The position numbers and the translations under genes were made by a program. Shown here piece after piece: positions 1 through 10,032 of a DNA stretch of 64,000 nt. Position 1 is the stretch's first letter; every line of letters starts with the position of its first letter. Below the pieces are notes generated by a model that made no database searches, was not told the origin of the DNA, and worked only from the letters and a program-made list of their open reading frames with translations. Location: the NCBI RefSeq assembly GCF_014696065.1, contig NZ_JACJPL010000010.1:1-64000 (forward strand), written 5' to 3'. Source of the stretch: Leptolyngbya sp. FACHB-261. Its GTDB lineage: Bacteria > Cyanobacteriota > Cyanobacteriia > FACHB-261.

Positions 1-1735
1 TGAGCTAACTGTTTACCCTTCAAGTCCCACAAGCGAGCTGTGCCATCGTCGAATCCACCGGTTGCTAACTGCTGGCCATCGGGGCTGAAATCGATGCTAG
101 TGACACCGCCTGTAGCAGGCTTAAACTGAGCTAACTGTTTACCCTTCAAGTCCCACAAGCGAGCTGTGCCATCCAATCCACGGGTTGCTAACTGCTGGCC
201 ATTGGGGCTGAAATCGATCCTATAGACACCGCCTGTGGGATGCTTAAACTGAGCTAACTGTTTACCCTTCAAGTCCCACAAGCGAACTGTGCCATCTAAT
301 CCACCGGTTGCTAACTGCTGGCCATCGGGGCTGAAATCGATGCTAGTGACATGGCCTGTGGGATGCTTAAACTGAGTTAACTGTTTACCCTTCAAGTCCC
401 ACAAGCGAGCTGTGCCATCTGCTCCACCGGTTGCTAACTGCTGGCCATTGGGGCTGAAATCGATGCTAGTGACACCGCCTGTGGGATGCTTAAACTGAGC
501 TAACTGTTTACCCTTCAAGTCCCACAAGCGAGCTGTGCCATCTGCTCCTGATCCACGGGTTGCTAACTGCTGGCCATTAGGGCTGAAATCGATGCTAGTG
601 ACACCGCCTGTGGGATGCTTAAACTGAGCTAACTGTTTACCCTTCAAGTCCCACAAGCGAGCTGTGCCATCGTCGAATCCACCGGTTGCTAACTGCTGAC
701 CATTGGGGCTGAACTCGATGCTATCGACACTGCCTGTGGCATGCTTAAACTGAGCTAACTGTTTACCCTTCAAGTCCCACAAGCGAGCTGTGCCATCTTC
801 TCCACCGGTTGCTAACTGCTGGCCATTGGGGCTGAACTCGATGCTATCGACACTGCCTGTGGCATGCTTAAACTGAGCTAACTGTTTACCCTTCAAGTCC
901 CACAAGCGAGCTGTGCCATCTTCTCCACCGGTTGCTAACTGCTGGCCATTGGGGCTGAACTCGATGCTATCGACACTGCCTGTGGGATGCTTAAACTGAG
1001 CTAACTGTTTACCCTTCAAGTCCCACAAGCGAGCTGTGCCATCTAATCCTGATCCACGGGTTGCTAACTGCTGGCCATTGGGGCTGAAATCGATGCTATC
1101 GACACCGCCTGTAGTAGGCTTAAACTGAGCTAACTGTTTACCCTTCAAGTCCCACAAGCGAGCTGTGCCATCTAATTCTGATCCAAGGGTTGCTAACTGC
1201 TGGCCATTGGGGCTGAACTCGATGCTAGTGATATAGTCTATGGAATGCTTAAACTGAGCTAACTGTTTACCCTTCAAGTCCCACAAGCGAGCTGTGCCAT
1301 CTGCTCCACCGGTTGCTAACTGCTGGCTATTAGGGCTGAACTCGATGCTAGTGATATAGTCTATGGAATGCTTAAACTGAGCTAACTGTTTACCCTTCAA
1401 GTCCCACAAGCGAGCTGTGCCATCTGCTCCACCGGTTGCTAACTGCTGGCTATTAGGGCTGAACTCGATGCTAGTGACACCGCCTGTAGCAGGCTTAAAC
1501 TGAGCTAACTGTTTACCCTTCAAGTCCCACAAGCGAGCTATGCCATCTTCTCCACCGGTTGCTAACTGCTGGCTATTAGGGCTGAACTCGATGCTATCGA
1601 CACGGCCTGTAGCAGGCTTAAACTGAGCTAACTGTTTACCCTTCAAGTCCCACAAGCGAGCTATGCCATCTTCTCCAAGGGTTGCTAACTGCTGGCCATT
1701 AGGGCTGAACTCGATGCTATCGACACTGTCCTGAT
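1..1735 (-). repeat. Tandem WD40-coding repeats, 123-129 bp units
   Basis: Fourteen copies of a unit containing the same core recur with starts near 2, 128, 251, 374, 497, 626, 752, 875, 998, 1127, 1256, 1379, 1502 and 1625, so the periods are 123, 126 or 129 bp (41-43 codons). The block coding WDLKGKQLAQ is almost invariant; variation is concentrated in the loop before ARLWD (GADG, GEDG, GFDDG types) and in the spacer after the block. The rightmost copy, which codes the N-terminal blade, is the most diverged. The array continues past the left edge. Confidence 0.93.
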
Positions 1736-3908
1736 GGCTCTGAAAACGGTTACGTTCTTGAGAACTGTAAGCCGCTTGTTGCAAGGTCCCTCTCACTTGA
1801 TTGCGGGTACTGACATCGCTCCAAATGGCTTGCTTGAGTTTCCTCGCTGCTCTCAAACTCTCCAGCAGGGCATCAAAGTTTAGGTCAGACGCTAGCAGTA
1901 ATTCTGAGGACTTACTGAGGGTTACACTCTGACTAATAATGGCCCCGTGCAGTTGCCACCCAGCGAAGACGACCAGCACCAAGGCTCCGACTAAACCGCC
2001 TGTCAGACTTCTCGTAATCCACTGCTGACGGCGTTTGCGCGCAGCCTCCTCTTGCTCTCGCAGCCTCAGACTGACCTGAATGAATTCTCGCTCCGTCAGG
2101 CTCAGTTCCCCTTGACGCTTCTCCAACCAGTCCGTTGCTTCTGCTAATGGAGCCCCCCGTAGGAGTGCGCCTTCATCGTGGCTACTTGTTTCCCACTGGC
2201 GCATCGCTGCCCTTAGCCGCTCCTGCCAGGTGCGAAATGTCCGGTCAGCTCTCATCCAATCACGCAGGCGCTGCCACTCGCGAATCAGCGCTTCATGCAC
2301 TACCTCCACAGTTTCCGATTCACTGGCTTCATTGCGCCCTGTCACCACTAGCCGTGCTCCTGCCAGCTTCGCGACCAGTTCCCAGTTGTCTTCCCCAACA
2401 TCAGAGCGAGTTGCCAGACGGCGAGTGTCTTCAGTCCCTTCCCCAGGCCGTATCAATTGCAGAAAAATGCGCTGTGCCTGCGTCTGCTCTGTCTCGTTCA
2501 GTTGGCTGTAAACCGCCTCTGCATGCTTCGCCAGCGCTGCGGCCACTCCACCAATCTCGTCATAAGCCCGATGGGTCAACTGCTCCTCTTCTTGTCTCTG
2601 CCACAGCAGCGTCAATGCAAACTCCAACAACGGCAGATTCCCCGGCTCCCCTCCGACTTCATCTAAAATGCGCCGCGTCAGTCCCTCCTCCAAGCGCAAG
2701 CCCCAGCGCTCGGCAGGCTCCTCGATCGCCCTTTGCAGCTCTTCACGGTACATCGAGCGCAGTTTCAAGTCAGCGTGCTGCAAGGCATCGGCAAAAGGAC
2801 CATAGGAGAGCGCTTGCCCCAAAAAGTCTGCTCGTAAGGTCAACACCAGCGTCAAACCCGCAGACCCTTGCCCCGGCTCATCCCCTTGAATTGCTTTGAG
2901 CAACTCATCAAGAAAACGTTTTTGCTCCTCTGAGTCTCGGCAGAGCGTGTACAGCTCCTCAAACTGATCCACCACCAGTAACAGACGACGGTGATTGGGA
3001 TGGCTCTCTAGAATGCGAGCCACACGCTCCCGTAATTGCCGCTTGCCCCCAAGCAGATCAAGGGCTAATTCCTCAGCATCTCTATCCCGTCTGGCTTTGC
3101 TTTCCTCTGGCTCCCACAACTCGATGAGGACAGTGGCCAGTTCATAGAGCGGGCGCTCCTTAGGCCGAAAGGAAGCAACCAGCCACTCTCCCTCTACCCG
3201 TAACTCAGGCATCAGCCCAGCAAACACCAGTGAGGATTTGCCGCTTCCAGAAGGACCGAGCACGGCCACTAAGGGCTGTGTTCGCACCGCCTCAACCAAT
3301 GGCCCAATAAACGCCTCTCGCCCAAAGAAGAAGGGGGCATCCTCTTCTCGAAACGCAAACAACCCTCGATAGGGGCACAGCAGCGCTGTCTGCTCCCCGC
3401 TCCTAGCCCGTAAAGCCTTCCACAGAACCGCTCTGCGGATCCCTTGAGCCACCTCTAGAAATGCCTGGTCCTGGTTAGTCCAACGAGTGATCGGCTCCCC
3501 ATTCCTCGGTAGGGGTTGCAGCTTGCCCAAAGGAGTGTTCTCCCAATCCACTGGACGCAGTAGCACCGGAATCACCCGAGCTTCCCCCGCCTGATGTCGT
3601 TCCAAGGCTCGCTTCAGCTGAATGTTGTAGAGGTCATCCGAGGCGAAAAAGTCAGCACTAGCCAGCAGCAAAATGATTTGAGCGGTGTTCAAATGCTGGT
3701 CCAGCTCCCGGTCCAGCTCTCCACCTGCAATGATCTCCCGGTCATGCCAAGCCGTGATCACGCCCTCCCGCTGCAGGGTACTGAGGTGCTTGGCTAGTTC
3801 GTCCCGTAGAGCCTCATCCTCACGGGCATAGGAGAAGAAAACTTCGATAGCTCCAGACTGCCCTAGCGTGGTTACTGCTCCAGCTGAATCTGGGAGAGCG
3901 TCTACCAT
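1..3908 (-). CDS. TIR - nSTAND NTPase - TM - WD40 repeat protein (partial, runs off left edge)
   Basis: At least 1,302 codons, read leftward; the stop lies outside the window. Domains in order: TIR-like (about residues 20-135, opening VFFSYAREDEALRDEL); nSTAND1-type NTPase (about 165-570) with Walker A GPSGSGKS near 217-224 and Walker B LLLVVDQFEELY near 307-318; one predicted membrane helix near 633-655 after an RKRRQQW positive patch; then a WD40 array from about residue 724 onward with at least 14 nearly identical blades (WDLKGKQLAQ motif). The ATG is preceded by a TAGGAGA-like ribosome site. By family, such proteins are signal-transducing STAND ATPases, often in conflict or defence systems, where the repeats sense and TIR is the effector. 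The position usually holding the TIR catalytic Glu reads Gln (Q97, in LYNIQL), so NADase activity is doubtful. Location at the far end of a possible tRNA-Val island fits horizontal acquisition. Confidence 0.9.
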   Translation of the reverse strand, partial: MVDALPDSAGAVTTLGQSGAIEVFFSYAREDEALRDELAKHLSTLQREGVITAWHDREIIAGGELDRELDQHLNTAQIILLLASADFFASDDLYNIQLKRALERHQAGEARVIPVLLRPVDWENTPLGKLQPLPRNGEPITRWTNQDQAFLEVAQGIRRAVLWKALRARSGEQTALLCPYRGLFAFREEDAPFFFGREAFIGPLVEAVRTQPLVAVLGPSGSGKSSLVFAGLMPELRVEGEWLVASFRPKERPLYELATVLIELWEPEESKARRDRDAEELALDLLGGKRQLRERVARILESHPNHRRLLLVVDQFEELYTLCRDSEEQKRFLDELLKAIQGDEPGQGSAGLTLVLTLRADFLGQALSYGPFADALQHADLKLRSMYREELQRAIEEPAERWGLRLEEGLTRRILDEVGGEPGNLPLLEFALTLLWQRQEEEQLTHRAYDEIGGVAAALAKHAEAVYSQLNETEQTQAQRIFLQLIRPGEGTEDTRRLATRSDVGEDNWELVAKLAGARLVVTGRNEASESETVEVVHEALIREWQRLRDWMRADRTFRTWQERLRAAMRQWETSSHDEGALLRGAPLAEATDWLEKRQGELSLTEREFIQVSLRLREQEEAARKRRQQWITRSLTGGLVGALVLVVFAGWQLHGAIISQSVTLSKSSELLLASDLNFDALLESLRAARKLKQAIWSDVSTRNQVRGTLQQAAYSSQERNRFQSHQDSVDSIEFSPNGQQLATLGEDGIARLWDLKGKQLAQFKPATGRVDSIEFSPNSQQLATGGEDGIARLWDLKGKQLAQFKPATGGVTSIEFSPNSQQLATGGADGTARLWDLKGKQLAQFKHSIDYITSIEFSPNSQQLATGGADGTARLWDLKGKQLAQFKHSIDYITSIEFSPNGQQLATLGSELDGTARLWDLKGKQLAQFKPTTGGVDSIDFSPNGQQLATRGSGLDGTARLWDLKGKQLAQFKHPTGSVDSIEFSPNGQQLATGGEDGTARLWDLKGKQLAQFKHATGSVDSIEFSPNGQQLATGGEDGTARLWDLKGKQLAQFKHATGSVDSIEFSPNGQQLATGGFDDGTARLWDLKGKQLAQFKHPTGGVTSIDFSPNGQQLATRGSGADGTARLWDLKGKQLAQFKHPTGGVTSIDFSPNGQQLATGGADGTARLWDLKGKQLTQFKHPTGHVTSIDFSPDGQQLATGGLDGTVRLWDLKGKQLAQFKHPTGGVYRIDFSPNGQQLATRGLDGTARLWDLKGKQLAQFKPATGGVTSIDFSPDGQQLATGGFDDGTARLWDLKGKQLA

Positions 3909-4323
3909 AGTTATGGTCTCCTAGCGGAAGTGTCCAAAGCTCTGGCTGCTCATTACACAGCTTTGGCACCCACATCATGACAGAAACCCCTGAAGCTGTC
4001 GTTGACAAGCTTCAAGGGTTTGGTTGAGATCAAGTTGTGAGCAGCTCCAAGCCTTGCAGAGGCACATTAAATTTCGATCAACCCTCGTAGTAAGGAGCGG
4101 TTTCGGCTTAGCCATTAAGGTCTTGCTTAGGTAGATTTTGGAACAATGGATAATGGATTGCCGTTTGACTCGCTGTACTACTACGGGAGCGATTAACTGA
4201 CTCATATCAGCTATGGGCCACAGCACAAACAATATGTTCAGGCACTCGCAGAAAAACGAGTGCCTATACGGAAAGGACTTGAGAGATAGTTAGAGTGAAC
4301 TAAAGTTTAACGGCTCATGTCGT
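3909..4323. other. Intergenic spacer between the STAND gene and the pentapeptide gene
   Basis: No convincing gene. Short open frames on the minus strand here lack family resemblance. The spacer holds the promoter-proximal region of the leftward STAND gene and one copy of a 52-bp sequence (3946-3997) that recurs at 8544-8595. Read on the plus strand, a 16-codon frame starting MTETPEAVV opens at 3976 inside it, but nothing supports its translation. Confidence 0.6.
3946..3997 (+). repeat. 52-bp imperfect direct repeat, left copy
   Basis: Matches 8544-8595 in the same orientation with 5 differences in 52 bases by eye. It begins 38 bp upstream of the STAND start codon. The two copies enclose the pentapeptide/HEAT operon and a degraded segment. 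Confidence 0.8.
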
Positions 4324-6480
4324 CTAAATAAACGCTAGGAGAGCAGCGATCGCAGGAAGTAACTTGGTACATTCCTGAACTAGCTTGGTCATGTCTGGTA
4401 GGGTTGACACTGTTCCTTTCAAAATCTTGATTGATGTTTTTGCGGCTTTTTGCAGAGCACCGTCTCCAGGTTGCTGTCCTGCTTGAGCAAGGTTTTCAAC
4501 CTGTTCTAGTGCCTCAATCTTATCTTCCTCCGTCAACTCAGGTTCAGTTTCGATGGCTGCTTGTAACTGAGCCAAAAGATCTTTAAGGCTAGGTTGGTCA
4601 GGATCAGAGGACTCTGGTAGCTGATTGATAGTGTTAGTGACGCTGCCGCTGATGGCCCCAAGGGCAACTCCAGTCATTGTTTGATTTTCGCCAGCTGCAG
4701 CTACGCCACTAACGTTGCCTTGAACACCGCTAATGCTGACATTTCCCTTACTTTGCGACATGATGTAATCTCCTCTAGTGTAGGTTTCGACGTAAAATTT
4801 GGGTTGGCCCAAGGCATTCTCTAATAGTTTTTCCAAACTACGGATTCTTTCATCTTTCTCTCCCATTCCGGCCAACAGAGCTTGCAAATCGTTGATAGGT
4901 AAGGACTTGATTTGGCTATAGGTTTTAAAGTATTCGCGATGAAGTTCCGATTGATTAGCATCACTAGACACTTTTGCCTGTAGTCGGATCTTCTCATGGC
5001 CTCGACCTTCGAGGGTCAACAGTTCTAATTCTGCTTCTGGATGGTTTTCTGCGAGCCTTTGAATTGCAATGGCAGCAGCACTCGGATCAAGCCCTCCGTG
5101 ATGAAATAAGTCGAGAGTTTTGAATTGGCTAGCCACCTCTCGCATATCGACATTTTGGCTTTTGTAAAGGTCAAGCGTTTTGATAATAGGAGAGATAAAA
5201 TCAGCAAAATCCCCCTCTTTGAAATTCTCCTGACGGTTATCCGGCTTTCTCCAGGGATCAGGATCATCAGCGGTAGGTAAACGCATGTAAATGTATTCAC
5301 AGCGAGCCCTAGTCAGACAGGTATCGGTAGAAATTGCCCAATCTTGGATGAATGTTCCGGTAAGACAAGCTTTAGATAAATCAGTTCGATATAACTGCGC
5401 CTGAACGAGCTTCGCTCTAGATAGGTCAGCCTCTTGCAAATTTGCTTCGCTCAGATCTGCCCCTACGAAGCTAGCATCTGTTAGGATAGCCTCCTGCAAA
5501 TTCAGTCCTCGCAAATCGCATCGATCAAAATTTTCTCCACGCCCAAGTTTCGTAATAGCGAGTTGATGGACTTTGGAGCTTTCTAAATAAGTTCCATCTG
5601 TACGAGCTTGATCTAATTTTCGGGCGTGAAACCAATTAGTGCGGGTTAGGGTTGCTTGTCTAAAGTCTGTGCTTTTAAGCGTGGCTTCAGTAAAGTTAGC
5701 ATCTGTTAGGTTTGCACCATGAAAGCTAGTTCCTCCTTTGGTTACTAAGGCAGTTGCAAGGGACTGAATGATTTGATACTTGTTATTTTTTGCTGTGATT
5801 GCCAGCCAACCAATATAGCCTCCGGTGACAATTGTAGCTAAGGCAACCGAGCTAGAGATCAGATAACCTATAACTTCTATGTTTCCTAGCAGAACCCCAA
5901 ATACTAATCCTAAAAATGCAGCACCCCCGGTGATGATTCCAGGTTTCCAAAGTGGTATTAATCTAGCGATGGCAATCCCTACTGCTATATTACCCACCCC
6001 GGCTAGGCTACCCGCAAGTGCTAAGGCAGTAAATTGAACATCAACAGCAAGGTTAGCTTGAGAAGTTGGCAAAAACGCGATGATCGCGATAAGAATAGCG
6101 GCAACAATTTCAGTGAGTATGACTAGCAGGGTACCCAACCCTAGAAACAGTATCACTGCTAGAAAAGTAAACAGGGCAACTAGAGCAAAAATACCGAAAA
6201 TGGGACCAGATGCATTACCAACCCATAAGTTGCTTAAGAGAGCAGCAGAATAGCCGGAGACCAGCCCTGCCAAAAGTGCCAACGCTAATGATGAAGCACC
6301 TAAGCTAAACGTCCAGGTACGCGACAGGCCAGCCTTAGCGTGGCTGAAATCTGCACCGACTAAAATTGCTTTTCTAAAACTAGTACCACGGATATCAAAG
6401 TGGCTAAAATCCTGTCCAACTAGATCTCGCCCACTAAGATCTGCTCCTCGTAAATTAGTGTCTTGTAACTTCGCCACCAT
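4324..6480 (-). CDS. Membrane pentapeptide-repeat protein with helical C-terminal region
   Basis: 718 residues. A short pentapeptide-repeat run (LRGADLSGRD and following, about 9-50) is followed by a hydrophobic region of roughly six or seven membrane segments (about 55-245), a second pentapeptide-repeat block (about 255-380, ANLTDANF, ADLSEANLQEADLS), a charged helical region (about 400-570), a Gly/Val/Ser segment near 577-615 (NVSISGVQGNVSGVAAAG) and a C-terminal helical domain with a hydrophobic end (LLPAIAALLAFI). Pentapeptide repeats form a right-handed beta helix; no enzymatic motif is visible. It lies 18 bp downstream of the secreted HEAT-like gene and is probably in one operon with it. 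Two repeat blocks split by a polytopic membrane domain is unusual. Function unknown; a membrane-attached scaffold or a conflict-system component are guesses from context. Confidence 0.85.
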   Translation of the reverse strand: MVAKLQDTNLRGADLSGRDLVGQDFSHFDIRGTSFRKAILVGADFSHAKAGLSRTWTFSLGASSLALALLAGLVSGYSAALLSNLWVGNASGPIFGIFALVALFTFLAVILFLGLGTLLVILTEIVAAILIAIIAFLPTSQANLAVDVQFTALALAGSLAGVGNIAVGIAIARLIPLWKPGIITGGAAFLGLVFGVLLGNIEVIGYLISSSVALATIVTGGYIGWLAITAKNNKYQIIQSLATALVTKGGTSFHGANLTDANFTEATLKSTDFRQATLTRTNWFHARKLDQARTDGTYLESSKVHQLAITKLGRGENFDRCDLRGLNLQEAILTDASFVGADLSEANLQEADLSRAKLVQAQLYRTDLSKACLTGTFIQDWAISTDTCLTRARCEYIYMRLPTADDPDPWRKPDNRQENFKEGDFADFISPIIKTLDLYKSQNVDMREVASQFKTLDLFHHGGLDPSAAAIAIQRLAENHPEAELELLTLEGRGHEKIRLQAKVSSDANQSELHREYFKTYSQIKSLPINDLQALLAGMGEKDERIRSLEKLLENALGQPKFYVETYTRGDYIMSQSKGNVSISGVQGNVSGVAAAGENQTMTGVALGAISGSVTNTINQLPESSDPDQPSLKDLLAQLQAAIETEPELTEEDKIEALEQVENLAQAGQQPGDGALQKAAKTSIKILKGTVSTLPDMTKLVQECTKLLPAIAALLAFI

Positions 6481-6498
6481 TTTTATCTGCTTATCAAT

Positions 6499-7749
6499 TT
6501 ACCTGCACTTCCACGGCAACAAAGTACGCAGCGCTGAATAGCGGCAGAAATGGGGTGTGGAAGAATACGTCCTCTCGATACTAGCATCTCTAAATGGGGC
6601 AGGCAGAAATGGTGGCTGAAGGAGATCTTGTTCAGCTTCAGCCACCACTTCTCTGACTGATGAGTTCTCCTGAAGAAGTCGATTAAATCTATCAGGGTCG
6701 ATTTCCTTTAATTCCCGGAGCCAAAGTCTTCGCTCATAGCCAGATTTGCTAGTATCTAAGACTGTAGTAATCAGCCAAGGAAGTGCTAGGGAACCTAGGC
6801 TCATTCGATCTAGAACTCTGAAAGCTGCTACATCGTCAGCCTCACTTTCAAGCATAGAAACTATTGTAGAAACAGTAGAAGAGTCGATCCTTCTAAATTG
6901 GTTCAATACATGCATACATGTATTAAACTCTAAAGTAGTTACGTCACGACCAGATACATGAACTAGATCTCTTACTATCAACTCTCTTTCTCTCGAAGTC
7001 GTATTCAAACCAATTTCACCTAAAGCGGTGATGACTAGAATTCTGGTAAAACCAGAAAGATACATAGTCTCAACACCACTTCCTCTAACAGAACGAGGGA
7101 TTAGAATCTCTCGAAGAACAGGTATTGCCTCTGAACCACAAGCAATGATCGCATCAATAACAGAAGGGTTCTCCTCCAGTTGATTAATGCTTTTTCTGAC
7201 ATCACCATCAGTACATCGTGAAGCACGGTTTAATACTTGTACTTGGCTCTCTCCTCTGTCAAGCTGCCCCACTACTGAATTTTGTGCTGGTGTCTCTGTA
7301 GAAACTGACAAATCATAACGACCTCGAAGATTAGGATCAGGTGCCAAGATCACGACTCGATAAAGACCAGCACGAGACATACTAAACCTTGCTGAAGCTC
7401 CTGCAGGGCTTCCCTTTACTTCAAGACCTTGAATCAAAGGAGATCTTGACTCTCCTCCCCGTAGTCTGCCACCTGTACCAATCAGGGCGAGAACATTACC
7501 CTCTGAGTCAAGCAGTGCGAAAAAGGGAAGAACCCCTCGGCTTAACCAATCTACTGCGAAATCTATTTGGATTGGGACATTGGCACCAATTTGAAAAGTA
7601 TGACCATCTGCTAAGTTAGAGCGACTTTCTCCAAAAGAACCTGTTTCTCGTAATAGAATTCGTGAACTAGACTGTGCTTTTGCTTCTAAACCAACTAGAA
7701 GGCTTAAGGATGCAACTAAAGAAATCAGAAAAAGGGGTAATACTCTCAT
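6499..7749 (-). CDS. Secreted protein with PPC-like beta domain and HEAT-like helices
   Basis: 416 residues. It begins with a clear Sec signal peptide (about 1-26, hydrophobic core, AKA-Q cleavage region). Residues about 30-150 look like a beta-rich pre-peptidase C-terminal type domain (GRYDLSVSTE at its end); residues about 175-365 are helical and HEAT-like (GSEAIPVLREIL, LGSLALPWLITTVL). The C-terminus is short and Cys/aromatic containing. First gene of a two-gene leftward unit with the pentapeptide protein, 18 bp apart. Likely periplasmic or exported. No catalytic residues are evident; binding or adaptor role is inference only. Confidence 0.8.
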   Translation of the reverse strand: MRVLPLFLISLVASLSLLVGLEAKAQSSSRILLRETGSFGESRSNLADGHTFQIGANVPIQIDFAVDWLSRGVLPFFALLDSEGNVLALIGTGGRLRGGESRSPLIQGLEVKGSPAGASARFSMSRAGLYRVVILAPDPNLRGRYDLSVSTETPAQNSVVGQLDRGESQVQVLNRASRCTDGDVRKSINQLEENPSVIDAIIACGSEAIPVLREILIPRSVRGSGVETMYLSGFTRILVITALGEIGLNTTSRERELIVRDLVHVSGRDVTTLEFNTCMHVLNQFRRIDSSTVSTIVSMLESEADDVAAFRVLDRMSLGSLALPWLITTVLDTSKSGYERRLWLRELKEIDPDRFNRLLQENSSVREVVAEAEQDLLQPPFLPAPFRDASIERTYSSTPHFCRYSALRTLLPWKCR

Positions 7750-8543: not shown

Positions 8544-8595
8544 CTACTCATTACACAGCTTTGGCACACACATCACGGCAGAAACCTCTGAAGCT
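8544..8595 (+). repeat. 52-bp imperfect direct repeat, right copy
   Basis: Copy of 3946-3997 in the same orientation, about 90% identical by eye. It ends 30 bp before the stop codon of the integrase. The translated plus-strand frame (SLHSFGTHI, ETSEAS) resembles that of the left copy, so both may descend from one coding or upstream sequence. Confidence 0.8.
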
Positions 8596-8625: not shown

Positions 8626-9807
8626 TTAAAACATCTCTGGCAGAATCGGGCGTGAAGAAACACAACCAGCATAGTTCTCATAGAGTGTCTGCACATCATG
8701 CCCTGTAACAGCAGCAACTGTTGTTGGGGGCAGCCCATCGGCTAAACAGTGGGAAATAAATGTGTGTCGAGTGATGTATGGCTTTCGATATAGAATCTCC
8801 AATCGTTCTAAAATCGTCACCCAAGCTCGGTTCCGGAAATTGTGGTCGTCGATTGCATTGCCCTGCCTGGTAGTAAATACCAGATCATCTGGTTGAGCTG
8901 CTTCGGGCTTCTTGTTCCGGAGAAGTGAGGAGATTTTGCCATTAAGAGGGATTGTCCTAGCCTTGTTAGTTTTCGTTGATTTTCGGACCCCTCGACTCAG
9001 TGACTCGCCTATCCAAACACTGCCAAAGTCATCAGAGATATGCTCCCATCTGAGACCAATTGCTTCAGAGGTTCTCGCTCCAGTGCCAAACAAAAACTGA
9101 ACGAATTCAGCATAGTGTTTATAGTGAGGATCATCTTTGAAAGCTTTTATGATTGCCTTTATCTCATCCTTAGTGAATGGCTTAGGCATTTGTTTAGGTG
9201 GCACCTTAACCCTGTTCTGCAATTCCTTCCAAGGATTAACTTCTACGTAATGTCTCCCCTTGCCCCAGTCCCAGCAAGCTGAGAGTAGACCCAACCGTTC
9301 CTTGAGAATTCGCTCGCCATTTCCCTTCGAGCGAAGAAATTCGACAAAGGGCTCAGCAGACATCAAGCCTAAAAACTCTACCTTCTTATCGGCATAGAAC
9401 TCAGAAAGGTACTTCTCCGTAGTCTTATACTTTTCAAGAGTTCTTGAGTAGACGCCCTTCGATTTGTAGTCGGTGAATAACTGAAATAACTCGACACAAG
9501 TGATGAGCACAACCTCATCTTTCTTTGGCTCTACGTATCCCTCTGGCTTGTACTTTACCAGAGTAGGGTCAAAATTCCCTGAGAGGATGTCTAACTCAAT
9601 TTGCCTAGCTTTGCCTTCCGCTGCCTTTCTGGTTTCCTGGGCATCGATCAGGCCAAGGGACAAGGAATAGCGTTTTCCGCCACAACTCCAGCGCAGTCTT
9701 AGACGTCCCTGGAAGGGCTCCACCTTCACAGTTCCTTTGCTTGCATTTTTACGCTTTGCTGTCCCTGGCTGTTGGCTCATAGTTGGTATTCGATCGTTGT
9801 GCTCCAA
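8626..9807 (-). CDS. Tyrosine recombinase / phage-type integrase
   Basis: 393 residues from a TTG at 9807; an ATG at 9780 (MSQQPG) is an equally possible start and neither has a good ribosome site. N-terminal arm-binding-like region (RLRWSCGGKRYSLSLGL, about 35-50), SAM-like core-binding segment (about 100-200), and catalytic domain with the first Arg in TGARTSEAIGLRW (about 245), the YITRHT box in place of HxxR (about 345), TGHDVQTLYENYAG with the candidate nucleophile Tyr near the end. It would catalyse site-specific strand exchange. It sits next to tRNA-Val, the commonest kind of integrase target, and the 11-bp iterons between them are candidate arm sites. Probably drives or once drove mobility of the accessory DNA to its left. 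Confidence 0.93.
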   Translation of the reverse strand: MEHNDRIPTMSQQPGTAKRKNASKGTVKVEPFQGRLRLRWSCGGKRYSLSLGLIDAQETRKAAEGKARQIELDILSGNFDPTLVKYKPEGYVEPKKDEVVLITCVELFQLFTDYKSKGVYSRTLEKYKTTEKYLSEFYADKKVEFLGLMSAEPFVEFLRSKGNGERILKERLGLLSACWDWGKGRHYVEVNPWKELQNRVKVPPKQMPKPFTKDEIKAIIKAFKDDPHYKHYAEFVQFLFGTGARTSEAIGLRWEHISDDFGSVWIGESLSRGVRKSTKTNKARTIPLNGKISSLLRNKKPEAAQPDDLVFTTRQGNAIDDHNFRNRAWVTILERLEILYRKPYITRHTFISHCLADGLPPTTVAAVTGHDVQTLYENYAGCVSSRPILPEMF

Positions 9808-9950: not shown

Positions 9951-9959
9951 ATGACATAT

Positions 9960-10032
9960 GGACACAACTGGACTCGAACCAGTGACCCCCACGATGTCAA
10001 CGTGGTGCTCTAACCAACTGAGCTATGCGTCC
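9960..10032 (-). tRNA. tRNA-Val (anticodon GAC)
   Basis: 73 bases, minus strand. The 7-bp acceptor stem pairs GGACGCA with TGTGTCC (one G-T). D arm GCTC/GAGC; anticodon stem CCACG/CGTGG with loop TTGACAT giving anticodon GAC; T arm ACTGG/CCAGT with TTCGAGT loop. CCA is not encoded. The adjoining integrase suggests its 3' half served as an attachment site. Confidence 0.97.

Follow-up and report, generated by a model that had tools for sequence, protein, structure and literature searches.

A clade-specific gene pair on a cyanobacterial tRNA-Val element, encoding a split pentapeptide membrane protein and a predicted exported partner, may form an outside-in conflict receptor

In multicellular bacteria, small adaptors join variable sensors to caspase-like, TIR and STAND effectors, according to the accessible parts of the reports on systems linked to effector-associated domains (EAD) and TRADD-N (PMC7159879, PMC8195603). 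In the same excerpts, pentapeptide repeats, caspase and STAND domains are linked, chiefly in cyanobacteria, to a constant module, TRADD-N (Kaur et al.; PMC7159879, PMC8195603). The EACC1 two-gene system (Kaur et al. 2020, System 4), as far as the accessible text describes it, is membrane-associated and some of its versions carry extracellular periplasmic-binding-protein domains. Here we analyse a gene pair of Leptolyngbya sp. FACHB-261, found in a stretch of 64,000 nucleotides (the window) at the start of contig C10 of the 6.95-Mb genome. A gene for a 416-residue protein (6499-7749) lies 18 bp upstream of a gene for a 718-residue pentapeptide/membrane protein (4324-6480). The two open reading frames (ORFs) and the 18-bp gap agree with the initial annotation; both ORFs are on the minus strand and begin with ATG. 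The two-gene membrane layout recalls the EACC1 system, but in the window's clade the outer sensor would be a separate exported gene, a difference from the accessible description of that system; no EACC1 domain came up here, though no search was aimed at one. With a probability of about 0.58, we read the pair as a two-gene outside-in conflict receptor, comprising an envelope sensor, a membrane transducer and an intracellular effector. Sequence comparison supports this reading through the pairing of the genes, the constant tail and variable front of the exported protein, the swapped C-termini of the membrane protein, the occurrence of its adaptor domain on CHAT and on AbiTii proteins, and the position of the window's pair on a defence island.

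Taken by itself the 416-residue protein looks like an orphan (own genome only among a set of 96 related genomes, all of the same class, and no plasmid match). This proved misleading, since synteny on pMIC7113.01, a conjugative plasmid of Allocoleopsis franciscana, revealed its relatives. There the same 18 bp separate a HEAT-repeat gene from the membrane gene downstream of it. The plasmid's membrane protein and the window's 718-residue protein share 59% identity, and the HEAT partner matches the 416-residue protein in both terminal regions (BLASTP E 5e-7 and 6e-7). The mobile setting proposed for the window's pair is thus shared by this relative. The loci compared came from the genome sets (20 + 20), plasmids (3, that of Allocoleopsis included) and a contig search (80). 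In that search the single 718-residue query retrieved nothing; an alignment query gave 284 candidate places, 80 of which were analysed. A tree was then computed for 106 distinct membrane proteins (one row per distinct core, ORFs of at least 550 residues) on the second pentapeptide block and the domain that follows it, excluding the membrane domain, with support from the Shimodaira-Hasegawa-like approximate likelihood ratio test (SH-aLRT) obtained by a quick method. Fragments such as L111, L123, L125 and L145 lie outside the counts, and pairs of loci on one contig (e.g. L067/L108, L066/L109) were merged only when identical.

The window falls in a 32-member clade (SH-aLRT 100), to which every one of the 20 loci whose partner bears the tail belongs. 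A predicted exported protein is encoded directly upstream in 27/32 clade members against 9/74 proteins outside, a HEAT-profile partner in 23/32 against 1/74 and a tail-bearing partner in 20/32 against 0/74, a contrast that is partly by construction because the profiles were built from clade members, and for which Fisher values are only indicative because tree rows are related and not independent. Tail-bearing partners lie at -49 to +51 bp from the membrane gene. The same genome carries a paralogue of the membrane protein on contig C22 (L032:8415-10529), with the same plan, 36% identity and an Ala/Val dipeptide-like membrane run (VAVAVAVA). No partner gene lies alongside it, and its clade consists mostly of solitary membrane genes. 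The initial annotation had treated the two genes as a unit; this holds in the window's clade and not across the whole family, and the pair is therefore a property of one clade.

The upstream protein is composed of a predicted signal peptide, an N-terminal region with no assignment, helical repeats and a short tail, as judged from the ORF, its hydrophobic N-terminus, the structural model and the Allocoleopsis homology. Its only hydrophobic stretch is N-terminal and is followed by an AKA-type site that resembles the cleavage site of a signal peptide, which is in keeping with the exported character proposed initially. The accompanying HEAT-like label is weak for this protein alone, which reaches no HEAT cut-off (API5, E 0.0068, 15.8 bits against 27.4), and is favoured by its relatives (HEAT_2 is matched by 14 of 15 aligned partners) and by the helical repeats modelled at residues 181-377 (6619-7209, minus strand; confidence blocks by predicted local distance difference test (pLDDT) mostly 64-95, one 52). 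The PPC label is not borne out: Pfam gave no match to that family at E <= 1, and residues 13-175 are mostly unmodelled. In two relatives the membrane gene is followed, after about 141 bp, by a second gene for an exported HEAT-like protein (L107:10312-11244, L121:10311-11252).

The tail (residues 399-416; 6502-6555, minus strand) is basic, has two cysteines and ends in WKCR. The tail alignment (A8) takes in 18 loci and 20 tails; the two cysteines are present in 20/20 rows, with the consensus PxMC[RK]IPxIRxVLxWKC. The region in front of it varies widely. Complete tail partners span 109 to 1,036 residues and carry from 0 to many HEAT repeats, the 109-residue one (L133) being a signal-like start plus the tail with no HEAT match. 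Two partners that fall under the 30-bit limit at which tail presence was counted carry peptidoglycan-binding domains, either as two stretches together with HEAT repeats (L142) or without HEAT (L132). Tail-bearing genes may also occur in tandem (two at L069, at least two at L072). Between loci, the partner shows lower identity than the membrane protein in 170 of 171 pairs (medians 41% and 59%; local alignments over 19 loci, without L115, whose partner is truncated at the edge of its contig).

The whole partner profile was rejected as a measure of linkage, because it matched HEAT repeats generically (350 of 386 genomes of the cyanobacterial phylum), and the tail alone was used instead. Across the 386 genomes it gave 8 matches at E <= 2.6e-10, each of them in a gene, single or in tandem, that immediately precedes a membrane gene of the clade; the window's own tail scored E 8e-13, by construction. 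A ninth match (E 0.0024) lies in a 665-residue ORF farther upstream in the L072 operon, which also holds two of the strong matches, and those from E 0.007 onwards resemble noise. No unlinked tail was seen in the 386 genomes, although a divergent one could escape the profile.

Being short, basic and bracketed by cysteines, the tail resembles known cationic loop peptides. The pair might then be a toxin-immunity couple, the tail acting as a membrane-active peptide on an exported protein and the co-encoded membrane protein as its immunity or target-blocking partner. However, a constant tail behind a variable front is the opposite of what most polymorphic toxins display, at some loci one membrane gene is accompanied by two or three partner genes, and the CHAT fusions reported below are not needed for immunity. 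We regard this explanation as very unlikely.

The downstream protein has the plan initially proposed, two pentapeptide blocks split by a membrane domain. It passes the pentapeptide family cut-off, with tandem A(D/N)LXX repeats in two blocks (PF00805, E 7e-30, 102.6 bits against 20.2). In the AlphaFold2 model (30 sequences, mean pLDDT 75.5) the blocks form beta-helices at residues 1-50 (6331-6480; mostly pLDDT 92-96) and 251-408 (5257-5730; mostly above 90), and six membrane helices lie between them at residues 54-229 (5794-6321; seen in hydropathy, with low model confidence, pLDDT blocks about 49-84), all on the minus strand. Foldseek agrees with the second helix, its 50 listed matches including pentapeptide proteins and others, such as NleL, in which a domain of this kind occurs. 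The even number of membrane helices fits, because both pentapeptide blocks should share one side of the membrane. The outer loops are predicted to be short, about 4-6 residues between helices in this low-confidence region; we speculate that whatever the membrane protein reads from outside would be small, like the tail, and not a large domain. The cyanobacterial pentapeptide proteins HetL, alr5209 and NP275 share the right-handed beta-helix of pentapeptide repeats, and their solved structures are pentapeptide helices alone. The window protein differs in being split by a membrane domain and in carrying two further domains. Viral contigs were considered as a source of the family and discarded, giving weak matches only (best E 5e-13), mostly in the pentapeptide region. 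A 474-codon frame elsewhere in the genome (contig C24, 193987-195354) has a pentapeptide/membrane part that matches profile positions 2-299 only, and is thus devoid of the two further domains.

The first of these domains, which we call MID, covers residues 394-558 (4807-5301, minus strand) and is marked by the motifs CEYxYM, RKPDN and GDFxDFI, in that order, with 25 invariant columns in an alignment of 24 rows (A9). In the model it folds as alpha-beta-alpha-beta-beta-alpha followed by a long helix. Neither the PDB sequences (best E 0.026) nor Pfam (LepB_N, E 0.00096 in 1 of 24 members, the remainder weaker) gave a credible match. TRADD-N was examined as a candidate identity. TRADD-N has an RRM-like order of strands and helices; the model of MID shows b1-a1-b2-b3-a2, with a fourth strand not seen, and rows from other clades are gapped at b1. 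In the accessible definition, TRADD-N has a tiny residue and a serine in the b2-b3 turn (PMC8195603). In the 24 rows of A9 this turn reads E-[GKR]-[RK]-G, with no serine, and MID was kept apart from TRADD-N for that reason.

MID is followed by a linker and a Gly/Asn/Val-rich stretch (residues 559-602; 4675-4806, minus strand), mostly unmodelled (pLDDT below 50 at 556-604), and by a helical C-terminal adaptor domain (CTD; residues 603-718; 4327-4674, minus strand), which is helical in the model and recognized by its identity to the CTDs of CHAT and AbiTii proteins. A Gly/Val-rich stretch (about 580-616) and a hydrophobic end (the final 19 residues), both pointed out initially, are present. Nineteen of the 30 members compared have an adaptor that matches the end of the PADLOC candidate PDC-M14B (best E 1e-7; window E 6e-4); unlike that candidate, the window's match spans positions 181-262 of 267 only, and the rest of PDC-M14B is not in the gene. 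The name PDC-M14 was not found in the literature search.

The C-terminus is the part of the membrane protein that is exchanged between relatives. Within the clade a CTD ends 25/32 proteins and a CHAT domain 5/32 (2 have both), and 4/32 have neither; Pfam confirms CHAT in the two tested, L114 and L137. At L127, CHAT is encoded by a separate, overlapping downstream gene (Pfam). Outside the clade a NACHT gene follows the same core at L141, L148 and L168 (Pfam) and at L065 (as annotated). Conversely, the CTD is found on other proteins: a CHAT protein (L271, 57% identity to the window's CTD), an AbiTii protein (L269:3249-4361; Pfam E 7e-34, CTD 47% identical to the window's) and a further membrane protein (L270, membrane helices assigned by eye). 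Two more combine a signal-like start, a membrane helix placed by eye and the CTD (L272:3610-5196, with a weak SBP_bac_3 match, E 7e-4; L273:2471-3880, with no such match), and these are possible receptors using the same adaptor. At two loci the membrane protein stops before the CTD, which is encoded by a separate gene 15 bp downstream (L104) or by the second gene downstream, beyond another ORF (L100).

The CTD is thus shared by pentapeptide/membrane, CHAT, AbiTii and membrane-anchored proteins, a spread that fits the effector-associated-domain principle for a coupling adaptor as the accessible parts of those papers present it (PMC7159879, PMC8195603). The EAD and TCAD Pfam models are not significant for it (TCAD2, E 0.18 for the window). 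The system described here differs from the accessible EAD and TRADD-N descriptions in having an exported partner with a constant tail and a six-helix domain inside a pentapeptide helix, and from TRADD-N in having a MID that lacks the serine. The pentapeptide, HEAT, CHAT, AbiTii and NACHT parts are all already known; in the accessible portions of the literature searched, neither the exported partner nor its tail was found described, nor was a pentapeptide membrane protein split in this way.

These associations also bear on a role in cell-envelope maintenance, in which peptidoglycan or an envelope protein would be the ligand of the partner, with the membrane protein as a scaffold that adjusts wall synthesis or cell-cell contact, the whole being mobile and unrelated to defence. 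The peptidoglycan-binding domains of the L142 and L132 partners are consistent with this, as are the mostly solitary genes of the sister clade. So are the amidase-like genes, named from sequence features, on both sides of the pair at L067, L068 and L069; one is long and the other short, and they bracket the pair as if it had been inserted after a duplication. CHAT protease fusions and an adaptor common to AbiTii and CHAT proteins are not what such a role would predict. Nor are partners that diverge faster than the membrane protein, a scattered occurrence, the C-terminal profile being present in 66 of 386 genomes, or the location of the window's pair in a defence element. We consider envelope maintenance rather unlikely, though it deserves more weight than the toxin-immunity explanation. 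The C-terminal part was also found on 20 plasmid records.

The conflict role that the initial annotation suggested for the pair is deduced from this domain company, and several observations weigh against a conflict receptor. Export of the partner is predicted from hydropathy only, and 5/32 clade members have no exported upstream partner by the criterion used. The amidase-like neighbours at three loci and the peptidoglycan-binding fronts elsewhere would also suit cell-wall housekeeping. Seven of the 8 strong tail matches come from loci already in the profile (the eighth, in G128, does not). The window protein ends in a CTD and not in CHAT, which Pfam does not find in it. Finally, the CTD-CHAT and CTD-AbiTii fusions belong to other genomes, and in the window's genome the family profile detects the CTD only on the two pentapeptide/membrane proteins, so that a recruited effector is not shown for this organism.

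If the pair is nevertheless a conflict receptor, it could work as follows. The upstream gene would supply an exported sensor, with a variable front (HEAT arrays, or peptidoglycan-binding domains in two relatives) and the constant, basic two-cysteine tail. The downstream gene would supply the transducer, composed in order of a pentapeptide helix, six membrane helices, a second pentapeptide helix, MID and a cytosolic CHAT or CTD. Binding of an intruder or of damaged envelope material by the front might lead to the tail being offered to the short outer loops of the transducer. On the inner face the two pentapeptide helices and MID would then shift their assembly, and this shift could switch on a fused CHAT protease or recruit an effector through CTD-CTD contacts, with defence or death of the cell as the presumed outcome. 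A more specific version, which we put forward tentatively and hold to be less probable than not, is an outside-in innate immune receptor with fast-diverging HEAT or peptidoglycan-binding sensors, whose tail is the ligand of a pentapeptide scaffold that triggers killing by CHAT or by an adaptor-recruited effector.

If that version is true, the scaffold, with six membrane helices inserted into its repeat helix, would represent a new type of transmembrane signal transducer. To our knowledge, most known bacterial immune systems sense invaders inside the cell. In a conserved cassette that links a variable exported sensor to a membrane protein ending in a caspase-like or adaptor domain, sensing would instead take place at the envelope, much as animal death receptors do it. 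Signalling could be probed with a single short peptide, the constant tail, and the CHAT-fused versions would offer a direct read-out.

As initially reported, the pair lies between a TIR-nSTAND1-WD40 gene and an integrase gene (both by Pfam). The former (3-3908, minus strand) is on the same strand as the pair and 415 bp past it, and its TIR is of the ThsB type (E 1e-56). It is a candidate, and only that, for the effector in this organism. In a three-gene arrangement the STAND protein would be the effector recruited by the CTD; the common strand, the 415-bp spacing, the shared element and the ThsB-type TIR are compatible with this, as are the NACHT or AAA-type ATPase genes just downstream in sister clades. 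However, in only 2/32 clade members is a same-strand ORF of at least 300 residues found downstream within a 170-bp limit. In addition, the STAND gene has a higher GC content, and a copy of a 52-bp direct repeat separates it from the pair. Such a three-gene system is, in our view, very unlikely. The two copies of this repeat (3946-3997 and 8544-8595, plus strand, 90% identical) bracket the pair and occur at these two sites only in the genome. GC content is 0.42-0.48 across 4-10 kb and about 0.49-0.57 on both sides.

The tyrosine integrase (8626-9807, minus strand; Phage_integrase E 5e-22, with Arm-DNA-bind_2) adjoins a tRNA-Val gene (9959-10032). A 48-bp attachment (att) core in the 3' half of this tRNA (9958-10005) has a 100% identical, inverted copy on contig C13 (23463-23510). 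The integrase beside the tRNA and the duplication of the tRNA 3' part at the far end, in the expected orientation, are those of a tRNA-integrating element. The STAND gene runs off contig C10, and its final repeats are probably at the start of contig C13, which opens in WD40 repeats. Because of these like repeats and of the att copy, C10:1-9957 and C13:1-23462 most simply form one element of at least 33.4 kb, which the assembler would have broken within the repeats. The WD40 repeats are near-identical, which accounts for the split between the two contigs and suggests their recent expansion.

The mobile region inferred initially for the pair therefore corresponds to an element in tRNA-Val, bounded by the 48-bp att duplication, on which Pycsar genes and type I methylase and specificity genes are found as well. 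The Pycsar genes, a cyclase next to a cyclic-nucleotide-monophosphate (cNMP)-binding/TIR effector, lie at C13:9112-10769 (G000, L289) and were detected with PADLOC (PycC E 1e-88, PycTIR E 3e-100). The methylase and specificity genes are at L290:368-3672; no restriction subunit came to notice among the ORFs listed for C13:1-23462 or for the window's part of the element. The C13 side further encodes a ParA-type ATPase, a large AAA_25 protein and a 761-residue protein with collagen-like GRDG repeats (L289:4569-6854; Pfam Collagen, E 1e-7). Past the att copy the genes are of chromosomal type, including an amidohydrolase and a transporter, the latter named by eye.

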